Below are positions 14,176 through 31,455 of a stretch of 57,684 nucleotides of DNA, piece after piece. The position numbers were made by a program, and so were the translations under genes. The stretch is taken from positions 1-57,684 of the forward strand of contig CANHMG010000005.1 of assembly GCA_947461795.1 (NCBI GenBank). Direction: 5' to 3'. Numbering within the stretch: the first letter of the stretch is position 1; every line of letters starts with the position of its first letter. The notes under the pieces were generated by a model, which was given only the letters and a program-made list of their open reading frames with translations, did not search any database and was not told the DNA's origin. The DNA comes from Flavobacteriaceae bacterium. Its GTDB lineage: Bacteria; Bacteroidota; Bacteroidia; Flavobacteriales; Flavobacteriaceae.

Positions 14176-14646
14176 ATGAAATTATCTAAATTCAAATCAC
14201 AGCTCGCACAAATAGAAAATCTCGAATTTGTGCTTCAAAACGGAACAAAAGTTCCCACTCACTTTCACATTACCGAAGTAGGTTTGACCACCAAACAATT
14301 TACCGATTGCGGGAATACCTTTAGAATACAAAAAACCGCCACCTTTCAACTTTGGACGTCGGTTGATTTTTACCACCGCTTGGAACCTAAAAAGGTTTTG
14401 AAGATTATTGAATCCACTGAACCTATGTTTGCCGGAGAAGATTTAGACATTGAAATTGAATACCAACAAGAAACTGTCGGGAAATTTGGTTTGGATTTTC
14501 AAAACCATCAATTTGTCTTAACCAACACCCAAACAGATTGCCTGGCAAAAGATAATTGTGGGATTCCAGCGAAAGTGAAAGTTGCTATGAATCAACTTCA
14601 AGAAGCTGCAGCATCTTGCTGCGGTTCAGAGGGTAATTGTTGTTAA
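14176..14646 (+). CDS. DUF6428-like arsenic-cluster protein with Cys-rich tail
   Basis: A 156-residue soluble protein of unknown biochemical function. It has no signal peptide. The body (VPTHFHITEVG, FQLWTSVDFYHRLEPKKVL) matches small proteins that accompany arsR and arsC in Bacteroidota genomes, which I associate with DUF6428. The last residues, ASCCGSEGNCC, hold two vicinal cysteine pairs, a sensible As(III)-binding tail. It is two bases upstream of the methyltransferase start, so both are read from one message. A chaperone or buffer role for arsenite is inference. Confidence 0.65.
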   Translation: MKLSKFKSQLAQIENLEFVLQNGTKVPTHFHITEVGLTTKQFTDCGNTFRIQKTATFQLWTSVDFYHRLEPKKVLKIIESTEPMFAGEDLDIEIEYQQETVGKFGLDFQNHQFVLTNTQTDCLAKDNCGIPAKVKVAMNQLQEAAASCCGSEGNCC

Positions 14647-14648
14647 GG

Positions 14649-15260
14649 ATGAGTCAAAAAGAACATTGGGAAAACGTTTTTGCTAACAAGCAAGAAACGG
14701 AAGTGAGTTGGTATCAAAAATCACCAAAGACTTCTTTGGATTTTATTTCAAAATTGAACCTTACTAAAGATGTCAAGATTATTGACATTGACATTGGCGA
14801 TAGTTATTTGGTGGATGCGCTTTTAGAGCAAGGATTTACGAATATCACTTTGTTGGATATTTCTGCCAAAGCGATTGACCGAATCAAGAATAGGCTAGGA
14901 GACAAGGCACATCAGGTGAAGTTTATCGTTTCTGACATACTCGATTTCAATCCATCGGAAACCTACGATTTTTGGCATGACCGTGCGTCGTTTCATTTTC
15001 AAACAGACAATCACCAGATTGTAAAGTATGCCAACATTGTAGCCAACGCTGTGGCAAAAAATGGGCATATGATTATCGGAACTTTCTCTGAAAATGGTCC
15101 AAAGAAATGCAGTGGTTTAGACATTACGCAGTATAACGAAGCCAAAATGACTACCGTTTTTGAAACCCATTTTGACTTGGTGGATTGTTTTGTTGAAGAC
15201 CATATCACGCCATTTGATACAATTCAGAATTTTATTTTTTGTGATTTTATAAAGCAGTAA
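14649..15260 (+). CDS. Class I SAM-dependent methyltransferase of the ars cluster
   Basis: A 203-residue Rossmann-type methyltransferase. Recognisable parts are HWENVFANKQETEVSWYQ at the N-terminus, LLDISAKAI (motif II), FIVSDILDF (motif III), DFWHDRASFHF and GTFSENGPKKCSGLDI. Motif I is unusual: IIDIDIGDSYLV, where relatives normally have a glycine run such as DIGGGDS. ATG at 14649 is preferred over TTG at 14637, which overlaps the previous gene. It lacks the cysteine set of ArsM, so arsenic methylation cannot be claimed. The substrate is unknown. Confidence 0.78.
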   Translation: MSQKEHWENVFANKQETEVSWYQKSPKTSLDFISKLNLTKDVKIIDIDIGDSYLVDALLEQGFTNITLLDISAKAIDRIKNRLGDKAHQVKFIVSDILDFNPSETYDFWHDRASFHFQTDNHQIVKYANIVANAVAKNGHMIIGTFSENGPKKCSGLDITQYNEAKMTTVFETHFDLVDCFVEDHITPFDTIQNFIFCDFIKQ

Positions 15261-15263
15261 ATT

Positions 15264-15875
15264 ATGTTTTCAAACTTAAAAGCCACGGTCAATTCGATTG
15301 CTAAAAAAGCCGTGTCGCAGGAACGGCAAGCTGTTTTGCAACCGTTAATTGATTATATTCAATTGAAAGTGAACGATGAAGAGCGCATTCGATTGAACTT
15401 TATCTGTACACACAATTCCAGAAGAAGTCATTTGTCGCAAATTTGGGCACAAACGATGGCTTTTCATTTCGGAATTCCTAACGTGTATTGCTACTCGGGC
15501 GGAACGGAAGCTACAGCGCTATTTCCGAAAGTGGCAGAAACGTTGCGAAATCAGGGTTTTAAAATTCAGAAATTGAGCGAAGAAAACAATCCTGCTTACG
15601 CGGTAAAGTTTGCCGACAACGAAGTGGCGCTAATTTGTTTCTCCAAAAAATTTGACGATCCTTTTAATCCAACTTCTGAGTTTGCCGCGATTATGACTTG
15701 TTCGTCGGCAGATGCAGCTTGTCCATTCATCGCAGGTGCAGAACAGCGAATTCCAGTTCGGTATGAGGATCCCAAAGCCTTTGACGGAACGGAATTAATG
15801 AATGCCAAATATGCGGAGCGAAGTCTCGAAATTGCTAGTGAGATGTATTTTGTATTTTCTAAAATAAAAGCATGA
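15264..15875 (+). CDS. arsC: Arsenate reductase, low-molecular-weight phosphatase type
   Basis: A 203-residue protein with the CX5R phosphatase loop FICTHNSRRSHLSQ that binds arsenate. A second cysteine pair in MTCSSADAACPF is spaced seven residues apart, as in thioredoxin-coupled ArsC (the Cys82/Cys89 relay). It should reduce arsenate to arsenite for export. About 45 extra N-terminal residues precede the catalytic loop, normal for the Bacteroidota form often labelled a tyrosine phosphatase. It overlaps acr3 by four bases (ATGA). Confidence 0.87.
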   Translation: MFSNLKATVNSIAKKAVSQERQAVLQPLIDYIQLKVNDEERIRLNFICTHNSRRSHLSQIWAQTMAFHFGIPNVYCYSGGTEATALFPKVAETLRNQGFKIQKLSEENNPAYAVKFADNEVALICFSKKFDDPFNPTSEFAAIMTCSSADAACPFIAGAEQRIPVRYEDPKAFDGTELMNAKYAERSLEIASEMYFVFSKIKA

Positions 15876-16903
15876 AAAAAAGACTGTCGTTCCTTGATCG
15901 CTATTTGACGCTTTGGATATTTTTCGCCATGTTGCTTGGCGTTGGCATTGGCTATTTTATCCCCAGTTCCTCTGGTTTTATCAATTCGTTTTCCTCTGGA
16001 ACAACCAATGTGCCGTTGGCGATTGGTTTGATATTGATGATGTATCCGCCCTTGACGAAAATCGATTTTTCGAAGATTTCCAAAATGTTCGAGCAACCGA
16101 AGTTATTGACTGCGTCTTTTTTGATCACTTGGATTGTTGGTCCATTTTTGATGTTTTTGCTATCGACTTTTTTCTTGAAAGACTATCCAGAATACATGAC
16201 CGGTTTGATTATCATTGGTATTGCGCCTTGCATTGCGATGGTGATTGTTTGGAATGAATTGGCGGAAGGCAATCGCGAATTGACCGCAGGTTTAATTGGA
16301 ATAAACAGCTTGTTGCAAGTCTTTTTCTTTAGTTCTTATGCGTATTTCTATTTGAAAGTGATGTTGCCTTTTTTCGGCATCAAAGGGTTAGTTTTAGATA
16401 TCACGATAGCTGAAATTGCGCAAACTGTTGGCATTTATCTTGGGATTCCTTTTGCCTTAGCGGTTATCAGTCGATTTTTGATTCGGAAATTTATTGGTGA
16501 AAAATGGTTTAATCAAAAATTCATTCCGTTTGTTTCTCCGATTACCTTGATTGCGTTGCTTTTTACGATTGTGGTGATGTTTAGTTTGAAAGGCGCGATG
16601 ATAGTCGATTTGCCTTTAGATGTGATTCGAATTGCGATTCCACTAGTGATCTTTTTTGCGATCATGTTTTTCTTGATGTTTTTTGTGTCGAAGAAAATCG
16701 GAGCGAATTATCGTGATGCTGCAGCACTATCTTTTACTGCTTCGGGGAATAATTTCGAGTTGGCGATTGCGGTATCGATTGGTGTTTTTGGAATCAATAG
16801 TGGGCAAGCCTTTGCGGGTGTTATCGGTCCGTTGGTAGAAGTTCCCGCTTTGATTATACTGGTGAATGTGGCGTTTTGGTTGAAGAAGAAATACTTTATA
16901 TAG
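15872..16903 (+). CDS. acr3: Arsenite efflux permease, ACR3 family
   Basis: A 343-residue membrane protein with ten predicted helices. The ACR3 hallmarks are GIAPCIAMVIVWNELAEG, which carries the essential cysteine of the fourth helix, LMMYPPLTKIDF, and the second-half SFTASGNNFELAIAVSIG. It exports arsenite using the proton gradient. It is translationally coupled to arsC and closes the arsenic operon. The stop is followed by a GC-rich repeat rather than a clear terminator of its own. Confidence 0.93.
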   Translation: MKKRLSFLDRYLTLWIFFAMLLGVGIGYFIPSSSGFINSFSSGTTNVPLAIGLILMMYPPLTKIDFSKISKMFEQPKLLTASFLITWIVGPFLMFLLSTFFLKDYPEYMTGLIIIGIAPCIAMVIVWNELAEGNRELTAGLIGINSLLQVFFFSSYAYFYLKVMLPFFGIKGLVLDITIAEIAQTVGIYLGIPFALAVISRFLIRKFIGEKWFNQKFIPFVSPITLIALLFTIVVMFSLKGAMIVDLPLDVIRIAIPLVIFFAIMFFLMFFVSKKIGANYRDAAALSFTASGNNFELAIAVSIGVFGINSGQAFAGVIGPLVEVPALIILVNVAFWLKKKYFI

Positions 16904-21780: not shown

Positions 21781-22347
21781 CTAAACCAAAATCCTTTCAA
21801 TAGTCCAGTATAATGCAATGCATGCAATGACGCCAGAAATAGGAAAGACAATTCTCTCTTTGTACCAACTTTTGTTAGCAAACCATTTACTAATGGCGAA
21901 ATAGGCGAGTAGAATGACAGTTATTTGCCCCAATTCGACGCCAAGATTAAAGGAGAGCAATGACGAAATAAACTGCTCTTTTGGAATTCCAATGTCGTGT
22001 AACGCGGTGGCAAAACCCAAACCGTGAATCAATCCAAAAACAAAAATGACGATCATCCGAAATGGATTGACTTGCTCATTCATAATGTTCTCGATGGCTG
22101 TAAATAGAATTGAAAATGCAATCAATGGTTCTATATAGTTCGCATTCGGAATAATCAAGCCAGCAGCTGCCAATCCAAGGGAAATGCTATGGGCAACCGT
22201 AAAAATAGAACATTGAATGATGACCGACTTCATTTTTGAATTGAGAAAAAACAAACTCAAGATAAACAATATATGATCCCAACCTAGCGGGAGCACGTGG
22301 GTAAATCCTAACGAAATATATTGTCCTGCATTTTCAAGAAATGTCAT
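21781..22347 (-). CDS. HupE/UreJ family membrane protein
   Basis: A 188-residue protein with five or six hydrophobic helices. The histidine-rich first motif FTHVLPLGWDHILFILSLF corresponds to the HPLGxDH-type site of HupE/UreJ proteins; FTVAHSISLGLA and GLIHGLGFATAL supply further conserved histidines. HupE and UreJ are associated with nickel uptake, but this shorter relative lies among secreted phosphatases, not hydrogenase or urease genes. The metal and the direction of transport are therefore open. It is the last gene of the seven-gene run, five bases after the DUF1566 gene. Confidence 0.75.
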   Translation of the reverse strand: MTFLENAGQYISLGFTHVLPLGWDHILFILSLFFLNSKMKSVIIQCSIFTVAHSISLGLAAAGLIIPNANYIEPLIAFSILFTAIENIMNEQVNPFRMIVIFVFGLIHGLGFATALHDIGIPKEQFISSLLSFNLGVELGQITVILLAYFAISKWFANKSWYKERIVFPISGVIACIALYWTIERILV

Positions 22348-22352
22348 GAATC

Positions 22353-23525
22353 TTATTCTTTAATCAATTTGATGGTTGCAGTTTGATCATCGTCAATGCG
22401 CAGAAAATATAAGCCCTTGGCAAGATTTGAGAAATTCTGTTTTTCGATATTGTTGCCACTAAATATACAGGCTCCAGCGCTATCAAACAGCGAATAACCT
22501 TGTTGTTTGTTTGTTGTATTTACGTTGATGCAACTCGAAAATGGATTGGGATATACGCGATTTTCTTTTGTTGTTGAAGGAACTTGAACCGCCAATAAGG
22601 ATGGATTTCCTCGAACGCAAATCACATTATTGACATTGGTTTTGAAGTCATAGCTCGTAATGCCAAATTGGGTATTCCAAAACCAGGCTTTGGTCGTTTG
22701 GTTGGGTAAACTTGTCCCACTCCAATAATTATGCACACCAATGGTTGGGAAAAAAGTAGTATTGACCGATGGATTCGAAAGGCTCTCATCGTTGAGTGAT
22801 TGCATTTCTTTGATGTTTGGTAAACGCCAATCTGTCGAACCTGCTAAGGATAAATTTTCGGCATAAGTCAATGCGCTCTCCCATGTTTGCGCCGTTGTAT
22901 TGGGCATTTTTTGCCAAACGAGTTGTGTCAAATTATCGGTAATCGTGCCGTCGCCATTGTCGGTAAAATGGTTGGTAAGGAGATTCGGTGGCGTGGTATC
23001 TCGAACTGCCCGAACGTGGTATTTCTTGGTTCCACCAGCGCTGATGGTTTCTGATTTTGGTTTGTTACCGATGCCACCGCCTGCATTGGTGCACCAAACT
23101 TTGGTCGCATCGCCGACTTGAAAACTGTTGGTCCACCAATATTCTGCATCACTCGCCGTAAAATAGGTCGTGTTCATCGCAGGATTATTATTTTGATGGT
23201 TCAAAATACTAAACGATTCTAATGGTGATGGTAATCGCCAATCGGAGTATCCAGCCAGCGTCAAACTTTCGCAATACAATTGCGCATTTTCAATGGTCAT
23301 TTCGCCGCCATCGACTTGTTGCCACATCAATCCGCTGACGTTGTCGGTGATCGTTCCGTTGTTGTTATTGGTGAAAGAAGGCGTATTTATAGCATAGTCA
23401 TTGTCTTCACCGAAAGTACTGGTATAGCTCCCATTTTGTCCCGTATCGGGAAGTAAATGAATTGTTTTGGTCACGCTTTGTGCCATGGAGATGGTGGATA
23501 CAAACAACAGGAATATTTTTTTCAT
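22353..23525 (-). CDS. Secreted protein with two DUF1566 repeats and a T9SS tail
   Basis: A 390-residue protein with signal peptide MKKIFLLFVSTISMAQS. Two DUF1566 (Lcl-type) domains follow. The first has GTITDNVSGLMWQQVDGG and AGYSDWRLPSPLES; the second has GTITDNLTQLVWQKM and AGSTDWRLPNIKEM, with the closing VICVRG. The C-terminus (VYPNPFSSCINV to TIKLIKE) is a type A T9SS sorting domain. DUF1566 domains occur in surface proteins and are suspected adhesion or ligand-binding modules. One base separates it from the next gene upstream. Confidence 0.8.
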   Translation of the reverse strand: MKKIFLLFVSTISMAQSVTKTIHLLPDTGQNGSYTSTFGEDNDYAINTPSFTNNNNGTITDNVSGLMWQQVDGGEMTIENAQLYCESLTLAGYSDWRLPSPLESFSILNHQNNNPAMNTTYFTASDAEYWWTNSFQVGDATKVWCTNAGGGIGNKPKSETISAGGTKKYHVRAVRDTTPPNLLTNHFTDNGDGTITDNLTQLVWQKMPNTTAQTWESALTYAENLSLAGSTDWRLPNIKEMQSLNDESLSNPSVNTTFFPTIGVHNYWSGTSLPNQTTKAWFWNTQFGITSYDFKTNVNNVICVRGNPSLLAVQVPSTTKENRVYPNPFSSCINVNTTNKQQGYSLFDSAGACIFSGNNIEKQNFSNLAKGLYFLRIDDDQTATIKLIKE

Positions 23526-23526
23526 A

Positions 23527-24750
23527 TTATTCGATCATAATTTTCTTGGAGATTTCAACGTCGGAAGTGCTAACTTTCAATAGGTAAATACCAGAGGAAA
23601 CATTTTCAAGATGAATGGTATCGACGTATTGATTAGTTGCGAATATTTCTTCGCCCAGCAAGTTATAGATGCTTACTTTTTGAATTTGACTTTGAATAGC
23701 AGCATCAGCAGCAATGTGGAAGTCGTTCTTCGATGGATTTGGAAAAACCCTAATTTGGTTTTCTAGTGCCGAATGAGCGTTTACTGATAAGGCTTGCGGA
23801 ACGGTCTTGCGCACGATTACTTCATTGTCTAGGATGACATTCGTGCTCCAAATAAACTGCGCATCATTTGCCGAATCATCAAAAATATTGGTAAAATTGG
23901 TGTATGCGGGTTTGTTATCGACTCCAATCGTGGCATTGGTATACATAGTTGCAGTTGGCCAAGCGCTGTCATCAAACGATGCAGTTTCCCAGCTTAGGGG
24001 TCTATCCCAATGCAATCCGTAATAATTGGTACCTGTAGTACTATCAGCCGAATTGCAGTTGACTGAAAGTCGAAGTGCCCCATTTTCTGACGGGCAAGTC
24101 AAGTCTTTAATCGGTGCAGTATAAAAAGTCTGCGCTTTCCAATCAGTCCCAGTTTTTGCAATAATGTTATTGTTGGCATCTTTGAAAACAGCGACTAGAC
24201 CGCCATCGCCACAATGGTAGTTGAATCCGCCATTGGTTTCGCAACCAACACCCAATCGTTCTTCCCAATCGACCAAAAGCATGGCTATCGTGAATGGACG
24301 ATTTACTTTGAACCGAACAATATTGGAATTGAACTGCGTAAATGGCACATTGTCTTTGCCGACAGGAACACTATTGATGTACATTTCAAAATAATTATCA
24401 GCAAAAATATAGGCAGTGATGATTTCTCCAGCAGGATCAATCGTCACAATGTCAGTTCCATTTAAGGCTGCAAGCGCCGTGGTGGCATTGGCATAGTTAT
24501 GACCATTGCAGGCATTGTTCAAATCGGAGGCAAACGGAAAACTAGTGTTCGTATAATTTGTTACTGCCGGGACCGTCCAAGTTGTTGCGTCTGATGCAGT
24601 TATGGTTCCAACCGCGGCAATTCTTCCTCCCGAACAGTTGTAAAGATTAGCCGTCGTTGTTATTGCCAAACCTTGAGTAACCGATCCGGTACCATTGTAT
24701 TGTGCGTAGCTACTCGCTGAAAATAACAAAATAAGTAGAAATTTTTTCAT
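23527..24750 (-). CDS. Secreted T9SS-sorted protein of unknown function
   Basis: A 407-residue protein with signal peptide (MKKFLLILLFSASSYAQ) and a type A T9SS tail (RVFPNPSKNDFHIAAD to EISKKIMIE). I do not recognise the central 300 residues. They look like one or two beta-sandwich modules, with IFADNYFEMYINSVPVGKD, LLVDWEERLGVGCETNGG and LHWDRPLSWETASFDDSAW suggesting galactose-binding-like folds. Six cysteines lie in the mature part. It abuts the YHYH gene with no gap, so it is probably part of the same exported system. Confidence 0.7.
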   Translation of the reverse strand: MKKFLLILLFSASSYAQYNGTGSVTQGLAITTTANLYNCSGGRIAAVGTITASDATTWTVPAVTNYTNTSFPFASDLNNACNGHNYANATTALAALNGTDIVTIDPAGEIITAYIFADNYFEMYINSVPVGKDNVPFTQFNSNIVRFKVNRPFTIAMLLVDWEERLGVGCETNGGFNYHCGDGGLVAVFKDANNNIIAKTGTDWKAQTFYTAPIKDLTCPSENGALRLSVNCNSADSTTGTNYYGLHWDRPLSWETASFDDSAWPTATMYTNATIGVDNKPAYTNFTNIFDDSANDAQFIWSTNVILDNEVIVRKTVPQALSVNAHSALENQIRVFPNPSKNDFHIAADAAIQSQIQKVSIYNLLGEEIFATNQYVDTIHLENVSSGIYLLKVSTSDVEISKKIMIE

Positions 24751-26358
24751 TTATTTCACCATTAATTTCTTGGTTACCAGCGAATTATTAAATTGGATTT
24801 TCACCAAATAGTTTCCCGCCGCTAAACTTTTAATGTCGATGGTTGGGGAAAATTTCATGGCTTTTAAAGTCAAATTTCCTTTCATATCATAAATCGCAAT
24901 CTGTTGAACCTCATTTTCCAAATTTCGATTGCCAAGATTGATGTTTAAGAAATCTGTCGATGGATTTGGATAGATGGATATGTTCTTTTCGATGGCAATA
25001 AAGTCAGCTGCTGCCAAGTTCGGAACGGTGCATTGTGCAAACCCATTATAGTTGGTAGATGTGATTCCTGTTGGTGTCACATAATTGAAAGTGTAGGTTG
25101 TTCCAGTCCAACTAAAATTGGTGGAATAGCCCGAATTTCCATTAAGCGTATACGACAAATTATAACCGTTGTTCGTACCGTTAACAGCGCAATTCGTAAT
25201 TAAAGCGCCGTTTAAAGGAGTCCAGTTTTCGTTTCGTACCGGATGCGCTGCCGCCTGCGGAATGAGTTGATGCGTTGCGTCTTCCGTCACTTGACCTACA
25301 AAATTGGCAATCATATAAGGTGCCGTTGCCGTTCCGTGATAATGATAAATGCCATCGGAACCTGTATGTCCGTGATTGGCATCGAGTGCGGTCATTGGAC
25401 TTCCGTCGGGCTCTACATTCCCATAAACGGCAAAACCATCAAAGCTGAACGCGCAGGGTAAATTGGTTGTGGTTTGTCCAAACGTATACAAATGCAAAGG
25501 TGCTATGTGGTAGTGGTAATCATCGCCACGCCCGCAATGTCCACCGAAATTGTCTAGTTGTCCATCGACAAATGAATCGACACCCGTATTGGTATGGTAA
25601 TTAAAAATCGGAACGCCATTAGCCGCAATACCAATAGCGCCGCGGGTAAAATGTACATTATCAATTGGGATAGGTGTTGCAGCGAATACGGGATTCAAAG
25701 GAATGCTCCAATGGTTGCTGCCAATATAACATTGTGGAATCGGAACTTGTTGTTGCCAACCGTGATTTGAAATGCCGACCATCATTTCGTGATTGGGAAC
25801 GCCTTTACTTTCCACATAAAAATAGTTGTTATCCCATGACGTAGCGACGTTGGGAATAAATGGAGTAAAGACACTATTTACAAAATTCGGGTCGGTCGTC
25901 GTTAGCATTTTTTTCGAAAAGCTATACAAGGTCAATAGCACGCCAAAGGATAGAATTGGAAGCAAGTAACGACGTTTTTGATGCGCTACTTTTGTAAATA
26001 CATACCCACTGGTTAGCAGTAAAATCAATAAAATTGAACCGAATTTGATTAGCGTTGAAGTGGATGAAGCTGTTGCGACTCTTGCCGTATTAGAATTCAA
26101 GGCGATGATGCTTTTTTCTCTCACCAAGACATATTTTTTATCAGCGGTAGACAAAGAATTAATGGGAATAGCAACGAGACGATTGTTTTGATCTTCTATG
26201 TAAACGTTTCCGTTTTTAAACATCGAAAAGGTGCCATCAACATAACGATTTTCTTGTTGAACAAACCAATGTCGATCTAGTCGTTGGTCGAAATTGATAG
26301 TATGTGCGACGCCTGATAGGCTGAATAAAATCCACGATAGCAGGATGATTTTTTTCAT
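24751..26358 (-). CDS. YHYH-domain protein with SHD1-like N-terminus and T9SS tail
   Basis: A 535-residue protein. After a signal peptide (ending SGVAHT), residues 25-85 resemble an SHD1 module (RHWFVQQENRYVDGTFSMF, VAIPINSLSTADKKYV). Two hydrophobic segments follow (about 103-122 and 131-148). The main domain bears two copies of the name-giving motif, GRGDDYHYHIAPL and DGIYHYHGTATAPY, plus GGHCGRGDD and NHGHTGSD. These are rich in His and Asp and likely bind a metal. The end (SIYPNPSTDFLNIN to VTKKLMVK) is a type A sorting domain. The mix of membrane segments and a T9SS tail is odd. Confidence 0.8.
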   Translation of the reverse strand: MKKIILLSWILFSLSGVAHTINFDQRLDRHWFVQQENRYVDGTFSMFKNGNVYIEDQNNRLVAIPINSLSTADKKYVLVREKSIIALNSNTARVATASSTSTLIKFGSILLILLLTSGYVFTKVAHQKRRYLLPILSFGVLLTLYSFSKKMLTTTDPNFVNSVFTPFIPNVATSWDNNYFYVESKGVPNHEMMVGISNHGWQQQVPIPQCYIGSNHWSIPLNPVFAATPIPIDNVHFTRGAIGIAANGVPIFNYHTNTGVDSFVDGQLDNFGGHCGRGDDYHYHIAPLHLYTFGQTTTNLPCAFSFDGFAVYGNVEPDGSPMTALDANHGHTGSDGIYHYHGTATAPYMIANFVGQVTEDATHQLIPQAAAHPVRNENWTPLNGALITNCAVNGTNNGYNLSYTLNGNSGYSTNFSWTGTTYTFNYVTPTGITSTNYNGFAQCTVPNLAAADFIAIEKNISIYPNPSTDFLNINLGNRNLENEVQQIAIYDMKGNLTLKAMKFSPTIDIKSLAAGNYLVKIQFNNSLVTKKLMVK

Positions 26359-26362
26359 TTTT

Positions 26363-28081
26363 TTATCTTTTTAAAATTAATTTGCCACCTTGTACTTTGC
26401 CGTTGCCTTTTTCGATTTGGTATAAATAGATCCCATCGGCAACATCACCACCAGCATTGTCAGTTCCGTCCCAAATGACTTGAAATCTGCCGTTTGCCAA
26501 ATAGTTTCCGTGGATGAGGTTTTTGACTAATTGTCCGTTTTGATTGTACACTGAAAGTACGATATTTTCTGAATCTTCTACTTCAAATTCGATCTTAGTT
26601 TCTTTCGAAAAGGGATTTGGATATACGATTTCATCCGCATAATCGGCGTTCCAAATCATCGCAGGCGTGCTCGTTCCTAGAGTATAGCAGTTTTCCGTGC
26701 CTATAAAATAGCTGGATGAAACATCTTTATTGTGGCGTGTGGCATTTTCATTCGCAGGTAAATAAGCACGGACATATTCCACCAAAACACCACTTGAACC
26801 CACGGTCACTCTGATGTGTCCTGAGTTGGGCAGAATCTGTCCTTGCAAATAGCCGTAGTCAGTCGGGTAGGTGGATGGGTTAAAATTTGGGTGACTGGGC
26901 TGCGGTGTTTCTTGATAAATCAGACAATCTTTTTCTTGTTTACCAAAGAAATGATCATGACCGTGAAAGAAAATGTTTACTTGATTTTGTGTCAGCAAAT
27001 CTTTGATCGGCATATCCCAACCTGCTCTGTTTGCTGCAAATCCCGGCGTTCCATCTAAGTTGTTACCGCCCCATTCGTAGAAATCTGCAAATTCGATTCC
27101 GCCGCGACCTTCTGGATTACCGCCAACCAATTGATGCGAAAAAACAAACTTGAATCTTGCTGTACTGCTTGCCAAGGTATTTTTTAACCAATTGTATTGT
27201 GCTTGTCCTAGTGTCCATCGCCAACCTGTCGTTGCTGTTGGTTTTGGATTCGTATACCAATAAGGGTCTAATACGATATATAAAGCGTCGCCCCATTGCC
27301 AAGAATAGTAATTTTCTCTTAAGCCAACAAAGTTGTGTATTGTGGTGTCGCCTGTGTAAAAACTGCCGTCTGGTGCGGGATTTAGAAAGTATTTTTTTCT
27401 CTCTTGTGTGTCCCAAACGGCAATGTTGTTGGCGGTTCCGTTTAAGTTCCAACCTGCTTCCCCTTCGTGATTTCCCAAGGCAATGAATAAGGGAACCGAA
27501 TGGCAAATTCGCTCGTAATTAGAACGCAAAAGTTTGCATCTATAAGGAATGGTATCATGCGGAATCGCATTGGTCACTAGATTTTTCAATTTATCCGTCA
27601 TCAAGAAATCGCCCAGATCAATCATAAAGTCGGGATCGTCTTCCAATTGATTTTGCAAGCACAATTGGTAGAGTGGAATATTGCTTTGCTCGTCCATGTG
27701 CGGGTCGGCCTGCACAATAAACTTGTAAGTACTGCCTACTGCTCTTTGCGTTTGAAACGTATGTTCAGGTCGGCTTGTAAAAGCAGTTGTTCCCGTCGAG
27801 CGATAACACAAACTATAAAAGTATTTGGTATTCGGCGACAAATTATTGATGATTACTTCCGCTGGTTCATCGATGATAAAGCTTTGCCATGGCGTTTCGT
27901 TAGTATAAGTACCCGCGGTGGTGCCATAGTGAATGCTCACTTCTACTTCAGCATCAAAGAACGCTTGGATGGTTATGCTGGTGGCAGTTGGCCGTCCGAG
28001 CAATTCGGCTTGCGTTATGTTTTGAGCGTGAAGGCATTGCATTCCAAAAAGTAAAATCGCGAGTGAGCAAATTCTTTTCAT
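26363..28081 (-). CDS. Secreted purple acid phosphatase-like metallophosphoesterase (first of two)
   Basis: A 572-residue protein with signal peptide MKRICSLAILLFGMQCLHAQ, then a fibronectin-like N-terminal domain (about 25-110) as in purple acid phosphatases. The catalytic domain shows the dinuclear-metal motifs in order: QADPHMDE, IDLGDF, ALGNHEGE, FSHQLVGG and FHGHDHFFG. The C-terminal 90 residues (VYPNPFSKETKIEFEVED, NAGGDVADGIYLYQIEKG) form a FlgD-like type A T9SS domain. It should hydrolyse phosphate esters outside the cell. Ten bases separate it from its paralogue upstream. Confidence 0.86.
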   Translation of the reverse strand: MKRICSLAILLFGMQCLHAQNITQAELLGRPTATSITIQAFFDAEVEVSIHYGTTAGTYTNETPWQSFIIDEPAEVIINNLSPNTKYFYSLCYRSTGTTAFTSRPEHTFQTQRAVGSTYKFIVQADPHMDEQSNIPLYQLCLQNQLEDDPDFMIDLGDFLMTDKLKNLVTNAIPHDTIPYRCKLLRSNYERICHSVPLFIALGNHEGEAGWNLNGTANNIAVWDTQERKKYFLNPAPDGSFYTGDTTIHNFVGLRENYYSWQWGDALYIVLDPYWYTNPKPTATTGWRWTLGQAQYNWLKNTLASSTARFKFVFSHQLVGGNPEGRGGIEFADFYEWGGNNLDGTPGFAANRAGWDMPIKDLLTQNQVNIFFHGHDHFFGKQEKDCLIYQETPQPSHPNFNPSTYPTDYGYLQGQILPNSGHIRVTVGSSGVLVEYVRAYLPANENATRHNKDVSSSYFIGTENCYTLGTSTPAMIWNADYADEIVYPNPFSKETKIEFEVEDSENIVLSVYNQNGQLVKNLIHGNYLANGRFQVIWDGTDNAGGDVADGIYLYQIEKGNGKVQGGKLILKR

Positions 28082-28090
28082 AGGTACGTC

Positions 28091-29743
28091 TTAGTGTTTT
28101 ATAATGATTTTTTTTGTTTGGCTAGGATTCCCATCGATTTCCAAAAAGTAGATTCCGTTTGGAATGGCGGTCGTATTCAACGTGTTGGTCGAAAATTCAC
28201 GAACCGTTTGCCCAATGATATTCAACAAAGTATAGTGATGATTGGCAGACATATCCGAAAACTCGATGTTTAACTGATCATCAGCAGGGTTTGGATATAC
28301 AGATATTGCCAAGGCTTTAATCGCGTTGCTTGTAGTATTCAAAGCACAATTTCCTACGGAGTAGGAATAGCCAATTTCCCCATTGTTATGACCAGCGGAA
28401 CCGTCCGTTCCTGGGATGTAAGCTTTTACATAATCTACGGTGACGCAATCTGGAGATACATTTACCCTAATGTGGCCGGTTCCGTCTAAGGTTACATCGG
28501 TGTAGGCCGAAGCATTCGCAGTGTAACCAATTTGATAGGTGATATCGCTCGGCATCGGCACTTCCTGATAAACGACGCCGTTTAATTGTTCTTTGGCAAA
28601 TAGGTGATCATGCCCTTGAAAAAAGATATCCACACCCGTGTCTTCGAAGACTTTTTGAATGGGTTTTCCCCAGCCAGGTCGGTTCGTATCAAACGTATAA
28701 TTATTGCCGACACCTTGATAACCACCCCATTCAAATTGAGTGGCGGTATCGATACCACCGCGTCCTTGTCCACGGGTGTGATGCGCAAATACAAACTTAT
28801 GCGCTGCCGTACTGTTTTCTAATACACTGCGCATCCATAGATATTGGTTGTAGCCTAAAGTCCAGTTCCAATTGGTTGGTTTGTCGTCTAAGGTTGTAAA
28901 ACTTTGATTTCGATACACATCCAAAACCACAAATAAAGCATCACCCCATGTCCAAGCATAATAGTTTTCTGGATTGCCAATGCCAAAAGGTTCCACCGTC
29001 GTATTGCCAGTATAAAAACTATTCGGCGATGGATTTGGATAATAGAATTTTCTCCATTGCGTTCCATAAACACAAATGTTGTTGGGAGGAGTTTGATTGT
29101 AGTAGAAGTCATTCTCCCCTTCATGATTTCCTAGTGCCACATAAAAAGGAACCGAGTGACAAATTTGCCCCAAGTATTGACGATAATCTTTGTGCAACGC
29201 ATCCATATCTGCACTTGTTGTGGTGTCTGGCGTGTGATCGTCGCCGAAAATATCACCTAAGGACAACATAAAATCAGGATGGTCAGCTAACTCGTTGGCT
29301 AGGGTAACTTGGTACATGGTTCTGTCGCCTTTTACATCATAGAGATGCTCATCGGCTTCGACAGTAAAGGTGTAAGATGCTCCTGCTGTGCGTTGGGTGT
29401 GAAAGGAATATTCTGGTGTTGCTGTAAAGTTTGAGGCTGAATTCAATTTGTATTGTAGGCGGTAGTAGTATTTGGTATTGGGAAGTAGGTTGGTCAATTC
29501 AATTTCGTCTGGGATATCAGCCACATTGGTGAAGGTAGATGATGTTAGATTGAATACCCCACTTTCCGTTCCGTATTGGATATAGAATTGCATATTTTGG
29601 TCAAACAAGATACTGGCGGTTATGGCGGAATCGGTTGGTCTTCCCAAAATGATGGATTTCTGCTGTGCAATTATCGACTGTGTTGTAATGAAAATTAATA
29701 AAATAAAGCCAACTTTTGATAGTATTTTAATAGTGTTTCTCAT
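28091..29743 (-). CDS. Secreted purple acid phosphatase-like metallophosphoesterase (second of two)
   Basis: A 550-residue paralogue of the next gene with the same plan: signal peptide, fibronectin-like domain and metallophosphoesterase motifs (VEADEHLYD, SLGDIFGDDHTP, ALGNHEGEND, FAHHTRGQGRGG, FQGHDHLFAK). A type A T9SS domain ends it (VYPNPADDQLNIEF to KKIIIKH). The pair clearly arose by duplication. The active-site surroundings differ: HHTRGQGRGG replaces HQLVGGNPEGRGG. The substrates may therefore differ too. It is the second gene of the operon, 34 bp after the Spy-like gene. Confidence 0.86.
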   Translation of the reverse strand: MRNTIKILSKVGFILLIFITTQSIIAQQKSIILGRPTDSAITASILFDQNMQFYIQYGTESGVFNLTSSTFTNVADIPDEIELTNLLPNTKYYYRLQYKLNSASNFTATPEYSFHTQRTAGASYTFTVEADEHLYDVKGDRTMYQVTLANELADHPDFMLSLGDIFGDDHTPDTTTSADMDALHKDYRQYLGQICHSVPFYVALGNHEGENDFYYNQTPPNNICVYGTQWRKFYYPNPSPNSFYTGNTTVEPFGIGNPENYYAWTWGDALFVVLDVYRNQSFTTLDDKPTNWNWTLGYNQYLWMRSVLENSTAAHKFVFAHHTRGQGRGGIDTATQFEWGGYQGVGNNYTFDTNRPGWGKPIQKVFEDTGVDIFFQGHDHLFAKEQLNGVVYQEVPMPSDITYQIGYTANASAYTDVTLDGTGHIRVNVSPDCVTVDYVKAYIPGTDGSAGHNNGEIGYSYSVGNCALNTTSNAIKALAISVYPNPADDQLNIEFSDMSANHHYTLLNIIGQTVREFSTNTLNTTAIPNGIYFLEIDGNPSQTKKIIIKH

Positions 29744-29777
29744 AAGGGTATGGGTTAAGATTAGATAGTTTATTTAA

Positions 29778-30227
29778 TTATTTAAGAATTTCGATTCCTT
29801 TTTGTGCCATTTTTTTCTGTTGTTCAGCAGTGCATATTTTCTTCAATTTGACCAATTGCCGATATCGAATCCATTGCAAATGAAAATTTTCATCAGCAAT
29901 ATATCTAGTCAAATCAGCTATCGATGATTCATCCGGATGTGACGCAAAGATTGTCTCATTAAGATGCTCCTTATGGGTTTTGATTGTTGCCTCAATATCG
30001 GATGCTGTTTTTAGGAATTCTGATTGTATGGCATCAAACTCTTGTTTTTGAATATCGGTCAATTGTAATTCGTTTTTCAATTCCATAAAAGAATCGTTTT
30101 TGGAGGATATTGTTTGTCTTTCTGAAAGTCTTAATTTCCACAGTAAGAAACCATTGGTTAGGGAACTCAATACCAAAATCATAAGTAATAATTGAAATCG
30201 GTATTTGTTAGAATGGTTGCTGATCAT
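29778..30227 (-). CDS. Spy/CpxP-like periplasmic protein, membrane-anchored
   Basis: A 149-residue protein with one N-terminal transmembrane segment (about 11-30) and an all-helical remainder. The pattern ELQLTDIQKQEFDAIQSEFL, then a charged central helix and VKLKKICTAEQQKKMAQ, is the LTxxQ-type repeat of Spy/CpxP proteins. These serve as periplasmic chaperones or metal-stress sensors. In Bacteroidota such genes usually follow an ECF sigma factor, but none is present here. It is the first gene of the seven-gene run. Confidence 0.68.
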   Translation of the reverse strand: MISNHSNKYRFQLLLMILVLSSLTNGFLLWKLRLSERQTISSKNDSFMELKNELQLTDIQKQEFDAIQSEFLKTASDIEATIKTHKEHLNETIFASHPDESSIADLTRYIADENFHLQWIRYRQLVKLKKICTAEQQKKMAQKGIEILK

Positions 30228-30310: not shown

Positions 30311-30358
30311 GACAACCTATAGACTGTTTTGATATCAAGAGGTTTAAATCAAAATAAA

Positions 30359-30408: not shown

Positions 30409-31455
30409 TTATAAGTTCACCAACTTTTTAGTCGTTTTAACATTATTAGAAGAAATTTCCATAAAATACGTTCCTATTTTAAGAGCGGAAACATCAATAG
30501 AAAATGAAGAATTCAATTCATTAGCGGTCATTGTTTTGACCAATTGCCTTAATGGATTGTAGAGGGAAATGGATTCTATTTTTGTAGTGGAATTAGCAAC
30601 AATACTTACAATCGCATTAACGGGATTAGGCGCTAAAATTATAGAAACATTTTCATTTTGATTTTGGATATTTAACGAAGTACAATTTGCATTACAATCC
30701 GTAATCAATAGTGGTTCACTAGGAAAGTAACTTGATTGTTGCACTGCGGCTAATTCTCCTTCGTCATAACAAATTGTAGTCAAAGATGGTAAATTTTCAA
30801 AATAAAGATAGGGTAATGGTGGCGGAAAACTTGAATTGTTAGTTAAACGATTGTTTGGACTGAGAATGTTATTTTTGATAGAAATAAATTGCAAATTCGG
30901 ATTATTCGGACACCATAACCAAGTCACTGCGGTACCACATACATCGATGCTGGTCAGTAGTGTGCTAGAAAAATTTAGCCAACTCAAATTACTCAAATTT
31001 TGCAAATTAACGGTCGTAAATGTATTTTCAATTCCTCCAAATTCTAATCTTGTTAGTGAAGTTAGATTTTCAATAGAAGCTAAAGAAGATAGTGGATTAC
31101 TGTAACAATAAAGATTATATAAATGTGATAAATTTGAAATGGGTAACTCCGTTAAGTTGTTCTGCTGACAACCTAGAACTCGTAAATTAGTAAAAGATTC
31201 AATTCCAGTAAAATCACTGATAGCACTATTACCAACACTCAAAGCAAATACTACAAGCGCTTCGGAAACTTCAATTTCATTGTTATTGTTTATATCAATT
31301 TGAATGTACGTATCATTTATATCTGACGCAATTCCGTTGGAGGGATTGGCTGCAAGAAGTTTCGCTTTAAAATTCGCATCCGGAATGTTCACAATTTGCC
31401 CAAAAGCCACAAAAGAAGAGTAAGTAAACAATAAAGAAATGTAAATTTTTTTCAT
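30409..31455 (-). CDS. Secreted leucine-rich-repeat protein with T9SS tail
   Basis: A 348-residue protein with signal peptide MKKIYISLLFTYSSFVAFGQ. The module IVNIPDANFKAKLLAAN then DINNNNEIEVSEAL is the usual opening of Flavobacterium leucine-rich-repeat surface proteins. About five irregular repeats follow (FTNLRVLGCQQNNLTELP, LSHLYNLYCYSNPLSSL, LTSLTRLEFGG). The C-terminus (IILAPNPVNAIVSI to TTKKLVNL) is a type A sorting domain. It is short for its family, with few repeats. A protein- or glycan-binding role is inferred. Confidence 0.82.
   Translation of the reverse strand: MKKIYISLLFTYSSFVAFGQIVNIPDANFKAKLLAANPSNGIASDINDTYIQIDINNNNEIEVSEALVVFALSVGNSAISDFTGIESFTNLRVLGCQQNNLTELPISNLSHLYNLYCYSNPLSSLASIENLTSLTRLEFGGIENTFTTVNLQNLSNLSWLNFSSTLLTSIDVCGTAVTWLWCPNNPNLQFISIKNNILSPNNRLTNNSSFPPPLPYLYFENLPSLTTICYDEGELAAVQQSSYFPSEPLLITDCNANCTSLNIQNQNENVSIILAPNPVNAIVSIVANSTTKIESISLYNPLRQLVKTMTANELNSSFSIDVSALKIGTYFMEISSNNVKTTKKLVNL

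Follow-up and report, generated by a model that had tools for sequence, protein, structure and literature searches.

CnrYXH represents the type of regulatory system in which an extracytoplasmic function (ECF) sigma factor, an anti-sigma factor and a metal sensor are combined. Capture and permeation of metal are joined in single chains in the anglerases, whose Ang-1 and Ang-2 domains, fused to HupE/UreJ-2, bind Cu2+ with Kd values of 74 and 62 nM, Ang-1 doing so through His1 in its crystal structure; the same source also describes HupE/UreJ-2 domains as nickel permeases (citing Brito 2010), names metallophosphatases as frequent neighbors of Ang-2-HupE in Actinomycetota, and reports DUF6702 as a metal sequesterase (PMC12537917). 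MbnP and MbnH occur beside methanobactin operons, where their relevance is unclear (PMC3621798). YHYH proteins of jumbo phages are predicted to be zinc-dependent hydrolases (PMC7824862), and YHYH is mentioned in passing in PMC11992049 and PMC7029224. A literature search with most subscription papers outside its reach found no paper on the role of YHYH in bacterial cells. To add to this picture, we present here an analysis of a YHYH-containing gene cluster at positions 21,781 to 30,227 of a 57,684-nucleotide stretch of DNA from a Flavobacteriaceae bacterium (contig CANHMG010000005.1; the whole stretch is referred to as the window), which we tentatively interpret as an envelope module for the capture of trace metal. 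Its parts are individually known, and no description of this seven-gene set was found in the literature search.

The cluster consists of seven complete minus-strand open reading frames with intergenic gaps, in transcription order, of 34, 9, 4, 0, 1 and 5 bp. They encode a Spy-like protein, two metallophosphoesterases (MPEa and MPEb), a YHYH protein, a protein without a family (G5), an Lcl_C (DUF1566) protein (Lcl), and a HupE/UreJ-2 permease (Table 1). An earlier note, made from the sequence alone, had described this tight array and five of its products as sorted by the type IX secretion system (T9SS). All seven frames were confirmed in place, and the C-terminal sorting domain (PF18962 and TIGR04183) scores above the cut-off in five of the seven proteins, with signal-like N termini, judged by eye, on the tailed proteins. 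The Spy-like call held as well, with Metal_resist and LTXXQ both above the Pfam cut-off, and so did the HupE/UreJ family, the motif letters of which are corrected from the HPLGxDH type to HVLPLGWDH. Pfam assignments throughout are matches above the curated cut-off. By sequence comparison, the cluster is a real cassette, more than a chance assembly, because relatives preserve its gene order and its first gene has a promoter-like element ahead of it.

YHYH matches at an E value of <=1e-10 are present in 36 of 299 genomes of the genus, taken here to be Flavobacterium because its close protein relatives bear that name, and 22 of the 36, the window genome included, carry the window type (56 to 100% identity); G691 has one at 41%. 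Gene order was read in loci from 21 other genomes, with counts limited to loci where the contig permits the test. Lcl comes after YHYH, either immediately or with G5 between them, in 20 of 21 loci, MPEb precedes YHYH in 15 of 20 cassettes, a sulfatase-like gene with a CSPTR motif follows Lcl in 9 of 20, and 9 of 21 loci contain G5. Wherever seen, the order MPEa-MPEb-YHYH-(G5)-Lcl-(sulfatase)-HupE is unchanged, and gaps from MPEa to HupE are at most 72 bp. The full set of seven was seen in the window genome and in G787 and nowhere else; G796, the cassette proteins of which are 91 to 95% identical to the window's, has six of the seven before its contig ends inside MPEa, and G789 (L124) has the YHYH gene without other cassette members. 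The place of the Spy-like gene varies: in the window, L106, L109 and L122 it lies upstream, and L114 and L116 have a gene of weak similarity downstream. The co-occurrence beyond close relatives that was raised in the earlier note therefore fails for the full set and holds for parts of it, as other genera keep YHYH with G5, sulfatase, Lcl, PEBP or the Spy/sigma group. In L079-L083, L086 and L087, YHYH proteins 35 to 37% identical to the window's are paired with G5 proteins 62 to 68% identical to the window's, G5 being conserved far better than its partner; these pairs adjoin MacAB/TolC-like and LytS/LytT-like genes (by eye) or an ECF sigma gene, and four of these loci encode a PEBP-like protein.

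Pairwise identities of the cassette proteins correlate with those of the marker RelA (r of 0.73 for YHYH, 0.69 for HupE, 0.54 for Lcl, 0.92 for G5, 0.79 for MPEa [12 orthologues] and 0.63 for MPEb), which fits a mainly vertical, long joint inheritance. Frequent lateral transfer of the cassette was considered and is unsupported, given this correlation. If the seven were a loose collection of surface genes held together by chance or shared history, with no joint function, the many optional members and varied flanking genes would be expected; the fixed internal order, the short gaps, the shared promoter-like element and the tracking of RelA by all six proteins make such a collection very improbable.

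The YHYH gene is the only one in the window assembly. Its signal peptide ends in SGVA, so that His19 is the predicted mature N terminus, and this N-terminal His is invariant across 64 aligned YHYH sequences, as are H172, D251, H256, D261, D262, H264, H266, D289 and H323 of the YHYH domain (mature numbering). Because a hydrophobic segment starts at residue 103 and two long helices are predicted there, the protein resembles a T9SS-tailed membrane protein; its earlier description as exported stands for the tail and not for plain secretion. The tail domain is found in none of 120 listed YHYH relatives of the 440-residue type. A sequence search of solved structures with the YHYH domain returned no relative. 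In fold searches with the model, the SHD1 part gave the top PDB match and the phage YHYH match was weak; the lack of such a match does not indicate a novel fold.

In the permease, H17, D24, H25, H53, H108, E73, E86 and E138 do not vary among 24 sequences, of which 10 come from other phyla. There is no N-terminal soluble domain, and the protein is 39 to 47% identical to gammaproteobacterial HupE versus 33% to the second copy in its own genome. That second copy lies on contig C56 (L127:8821-9426) before deaminase-like and protease-like genes (by eye), and the neighborhood in L085, from another genus, resembles it. Close linkage of YHYH and HupE was also considered as a family-wide rule and rejected, as only the window pairs them closely among the matches listed (by eye).

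Table 1. Features of the cassette and its upstream element in the window, with Pfam scores
Feature	Position	Strand	Evidence
HupE_UreJ_2 membrane protein, bare permease domain	21781-22347	-	PF13795 152.3 bits (cut-off 24.5), residues 10-156 of 188
Lcl_C (DUF1566) protein, T9SS tail	22353-23525	-	Lcl_C 174.3 bits in two stretches, Por_Secre_tail 43.1 bits
G5, family-less protein, T9SS tail	23527-24750	-	Por_Secre_tail the sole Pfam match
YHYH protein: signal peptide, SHD1-like domain, two predicted membrane helices, YHYH domain, T9SS tail	24751-26358	-	PF14240 46.9 bits (cut-off 25)
Metallophosphoesterase b (MPEb), T9SS type A tail	26363-28081	-	Metallophos 38.7 bits, Por_Secre_tail 30.3 bits
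Metallophosphoesterase a (MPEa), T9SS type A tail	28091-29743	-	Metallophos 33.5 bits, Por_Secre_tail 48.9 bits
Spy-like protein (Spy/CnrX-like sensor)	29778-30227	-	Metal_resist 31.8 bits (cut-off 29.2), LTXXQ 30.1 bits, both above cut-off
Promoter-like element M2, TTAAACC-N16-GTCTA	30320-30347	-	92 bp before the Spy-like start codon

The regulators of the cassette are of the metal-sensor type. The Spy-like protein has one N-terminal hydrophobic segment, from residue 11, and a sequence search of solved structures returned no relative of it. In three relatives (G820, G787 and G908), ECF sigma, anti-sigma and Spy-like genes lead the cassette: the order is sigma, anti-sigma, Spy, MPEa, MPEb in L122 (G787) and L296 (G908), and multicopper oxidase, redoxin, sigma, anti-sigma, Spy, YHYH, Lcl, HupE in L109 (G820; the same contig as L033). 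A close relative of the cassette-type sigma factor (63 to 99% identity) is encoded in 4 of the 22 genomes, the fourth being G796, where the gene stands at the contig end directly after a leucine-rich repeat (LRR) gene. The 181-bp gap between the LRR and Spy-like genes of the window, read by eye in three frames, holds no remnant of a sigma/anti-sigma pair, and we infer that the pair was lost in the window lineage.

Two promoter-like motifs, each with a fixed spacing, were found by reading upstream sequences. M2 (TTAAACC-N16-GTCTW) has a single match in the window (expected 0.03) and precedes the first gene of nine cassettes, the window's included. Of 103 cassette genes, 9 have an exact M2 within the 200 bp before them, each time a Spy or MPEa gene, as against 0 of the 210 other genes of these loci; the motif was derived from the tested sequences, and the other genes of the loci serve as the control. 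M1 (RCMAGWW-N14-CRTCTAA) stands before cassette-type sigma and/or anti-sigma genes, before the multicopper oxidase gene in G820, G700, G853, G681 and G787, and, in exact form, before the cassette YHYH gene in eight genomes. It occurs at 11 of 103 cassette genes versus 1 of 210 others, that one being the anti-sigma gene of L122, and genome-wide it has 40 matches versus 19. At G708:C63:1455-1556 and G681:C118:7547-7645, small divergent genes flank a back-to-back pair of M1 and M2 that spans about 100 bp; the same sigma factors may have a further target there.

Sister operons were surveyed in 20 stretches around M1 or sigma sites, drawn from 16 of the 22 genomes. Nine of the 16 (G000, which is the window genome, G700, G708, G853, G798, G694, G726, G767 and G799) encode MbnP and an MbnH/MauG-like diheme protein within an ECF sigma operon. 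Within these nine operons a Spy-like gene was seen in eight and a multicopper oxidase plus a redoxin in seven, and a further YHYH gene closes the operon in six (G700, G708, G853, G726, G767 and G799). Pfam profiles were checked for the operon of the window genome, on contig C86 (L278:3-5001), which encodes ECF sigma, anti-sigma, Spy-like, MbnP, MbnH-like, multicopper oxidase and redoxin proteins. MbnP, CCP_MauG, the multicopper oxidase, with a T9SS tail, and sigma score above the cut-off and Metal_resist below it; MbnP and the diheme protein are both below the stricter NCBIfam cut-offs. M1-like sites precede the anti-sigma gene (one mismatch) and the multicopper oxidase gene (two mismatches) of this operon and not its sigma gene (five), and the contig ends inside the redoxin gene, before any YHYH.

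YHYH is encoded in 125 of 397 genomes of the family. Its neighbors were counted in 84 loci picked by hand among the matches listed, all holding YHYH and some drawn from the same genome (20 chosen partly for likeness to the window, 60 across size classes and 4 from the genus); a partner counted when it lay in a same-strand run within four genes, and the counts were compared with 1,000 draws of random centers in the same loci. Pfam was checked on one example per neighbor type, for most types. SCO1 and a MORN lipoprotein each lie beside YHYH in 31 of the 84 loci (random means of 8.3 and 8.4, maxima of 15 and 17), followed by Spy (15; mean 6.3, maximum 13), EF-hand (14; 5.9, 12), a DUF6702-like protein (9; 1.9, 5), a YCF48-like protein (9; 1.8, 6), MauG (8; 1.8, 6), sulfatase (8; 1.7, 7), MbnP (7; 1.5, 5), G5 (7; 2.2, 6) and a second N-terminal-His type (7; 1.3, 5). 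SCO1, MbnP or MauG is in the YHYH run in 37 of 84 loci. The DUF6702-like example falls below the Pfam cut-off (19.5 versus 24), and the second N-terminal-His type has no Pfam match. Counts within the simulated maximum were obtained for anti-sigma (10; mean 5.3, maximum 12), CotH (8; 3.1, 8), LytT (7; 2.7, 8), LytS (6; 3.0, 8), PEBP (4; 1.3, 4) and Lcl (2; 0.8, 2).

The metal theme proposed in the earlier note gained support, and we favor it because of the Spy/Metal_resist sensor, the N-terminal-His YHYH protein, the HupE permease and, in these genomes, the copper proteins found with M1 or in operons of the same type; copper is the best guess as the sister operons carry copper-protein families. 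Our preferred reading, offered tentatively from sequence comparisons, is that the cassette may be an envelope module for capturing trace metal, most probably copper, in which the N-terminal-His YHYH protein would bind the metal and hand it to a stand-alone HupE/UreJ-2. The seven genes would be expressed as one transcript. The two helices are predicted to hold YHYH in the inner membrane, its SHD1-like and YHYH domains lying in the periplasm, and signal peptidase is predicted to leave His19 at the N terminus, as in the copper-binding anglerase domains. The Spy-like protein would sense metal and release an ECF sigma factor, either that of the cassette's own pair, in some relatives, or, in the window genome, perhaps that of the C86 operon. 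Shortage of metal is favored over excess as the signal because HupE-type proteins are described as uptake permeases. The exported metallophosphoesterases, Lcl, G5 and, in nine relatives, the sulfatase would act at the surface, possibly removing phosphate or sulfate groups that hold metal in organic matter. Within this scheme, the transfer of metal from YHYH to HupE and the part played by the phosphoesterases are presumptive.

Several observations weigh against the metal-capture reading. HupE closes 14 of the 20 testable cassettes. ECF sigma is not enriched beside YHYH (9 of 84 loci; random mean 9.1, maximum 16), the window genome has no cassette-type sigma (the best match, at 37%, is on contig C86 of an assembly about 90% complete), the site before the window YHYH gene has five mismatches to M1, which is thus not present there, and M2 is not enriched genome-wide, with 51 matches in the 22 genomes versus 51 for the reversed pattern. 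The T9SS tail of the window YHYH protein coexists with predicted inner-membrane helices. For the YHYH proteins encoded in the MbnP operons, the predicted first residue is Gln instead of His, and the N-terminal His is therefore a trait of one YHYH subfamily. The phage proteins, as noted above, are predicted to be zinc-dependent hydrolases, and metallophosphatases typically hold Mn, Fe or Zn (PMC12537917), not Cu. More speculative, and doubtful as a complete chain, is surface metal mining: exported phosphatases and sulfatases would strip metal-holding anionic groups from organic polymers, SHD1-YHYH would catch the metal and bare HupE would import it, which would make the pair a split anglerase of two proteins, controlled through a Spy-gated ECF sigma regulon, and YHYH a new cellular copper-handling family.

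Both phosphoesterases have a PF00149 (Metallophos, calcineurin-like) core above the cut-off and conserved candidate di-metal ligands: D131/H133, D164, H207, H321 and H378/H380 are invariant in 12 MPEa orthologues, and D126/H128, D155, H205, H316 and H375/H377 in 14 MPEb orthologues. In purple acid phosphatases, GDxxY, with a tyrosine ligand, is the second motif of the set. At its place MPEa reads GDIFG and MPEb GDFLM; the string is nowhere in the 12 MPEa orthologues and in 3 of the 14 MPEb orthologues, the window MPEb having GDALY out of place, after GNHE. The N-terminal domain Pur_ac_phosph_N (PF16656) scores 25.7 bits in MPEa and 20.2 bits in MPEb, versus a cut-off of 30. The purple acid phosphatase label given to them in the earlier note is not upheld. 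A sequence search of solved structures with MPEa outside its tail returned no relative.

The two T9SS-tailed enzymes with their conserved metal ligands, together with the sulfatase-like gene of relatives (Pfam Sulfatase and a T9SS tail in L118, the sole locus checked by profile), could instead point to phosphate and sulfate scavenging, in which these enzymes free phosphate or sulfate from dissolved organic matter and the other genes are helpers. MPEb, however, is missing in 5 of 20 testable cassettes, whereas Lcl follows YHYH almost throughout; no phosphate transporter or Pho regulator is found by Pfam among the seven proteins (no Pho-box search was made), and the regulators are of the metal-sensor type. 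Phosphate scavenging as the point of the operon, put forward in the earlier note, thus gained no support from enzymes that vary in this way, and we judge it unlikely.

The permease might, alternatively, serve the enzymes, handling Mn, Zn or Fe for the exported metallophosphoesterases in an operon that both makes and metallates them. Outside Flavobacterium, the HupE/UreJ-2 gene lies 0.6 to 1.4 kb from a soxB-like gene in 33 of 37 loci (L034-L070; in two of the four exceptions the contig starts too near to tell, and the SoxB profile was checked for L052). SoxB, MPEa and MPEb share the metallophosphoesterase superfamily, and the linkage hints that the permease may serve an enzyme of that family in SUP05/Thioglobus-type bacteria. 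The metallophosphatases beside Ang-2-HupE and an Nramp-like gene (named by eye) convergent with five cassettes, and one gene further from a sixth, agree with this view. The soxB loci, however, are nearly all from one clade, SUP05/Thioglobus and kin by record titles, T9SS cargo could acquire metal elsewhere, and no phosphoesterase is present in 3 of 12 HupE-closed cassettes with enough upstream sequence (L109, L112 and L119). We regard such service to the enzymes as rather unlikely. In the 19 loci examined, the soxB-linked HupE/UreJ-2 genes exceed the window's in length.

The Spy/Metal_resist sensor and, in related operons, the ECF sigma factor and multicopper oxidase would also suit a defense against copper or other metals, a stress response of the envelope by which surplus metal is bound and removed. 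CnrYXH and CueO are the models for such a response. The seven proteins include no efflux pump or P-type ATPase by Pfam, and HupE/UreJ-2 domains are described as nickel permeases in PMC12537917; metal defense is a quite improbable function for the cassette.

The cassette is flanked by an amino acid permease gene that converges on it from 1 bp away and, upstream on the same strand, by an LRR gene with a T9SS tail (30409-31455). The same amino acid permease family is the 3' neighbor in six loci, and flanks other than these and the Nramp-like ones differ. LRR-like genes stand directly upstream of the cassette or its sigma gene in the window, L114, L116 and L297, with a row of five frames in L116. 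Elsewhere in the window, positions 14176-16903 hold what we take, by eye, to be an arsenic-resistance-like set (methyltransferase, arsenate-reductase-like and ACR3-like permease genes), with a presumed catalase-peroxidase-like gene nearby. Scans of the window with tRNA and Rfam models gave no matches, and a scan for sigma-70 promoters and terminators gave site numbers no higher than in shuffles. The AlphaFold (AF2) model of G5 was unusable (mean predicted local distance difference test score of 37.4), and a sequence search of solved structures with G5 outside its T9SS tail returned no relative, weak matches near an E value of 0.4 being treated as chance.

The link of YHYH to SCO1, MbnP/MbnH, multicopper oxidase, DUF6702-like protein and HupE suggests a role in metal handling that can be put to the test, and a sigma regulon marked by a defined promoter motif is predicted from it. 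Should the metal-capture reading be true, the cassette would be one route by which such bacteria could obtain trace metals from organic matter.

Compared with the described systems, the window YHYH protein shares a Pfam domain and conserved His and Asp residues with that of jumbo phages (PMC7824862), but it is a cellular membrane protein with an SHD1-like domain and not a virion part. The likeness to MbnP/MbnH is that the ECF sigma-headed operons of six relatives have a different type of YHYH gene after those for MbnP and the MbnH-like protein, and that the window genome carries such an operon on C86; neither gene, however, is among the window's seven. As in CnrYXH, a Metal_resist/Spy sensor with one N-terminal hydrophobic segment is present, and sigma and anti-sigma genes adjoin it in some relatives, but the window sensor has no such adjacent pair. 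The anglerases are matched by a HupE protein of the same Pfam family, by an N-terminal His predicted on a partner, YHYH, in the same cluster, and by metallophosphatases nearby, as for Ang-2. The difference is that the window permease is bare, at 188 residues, and the N-terminal His is on a separate SHD1-YHYH chain; by this analogy, YHYH and the bare HupE may be a split anglerase.

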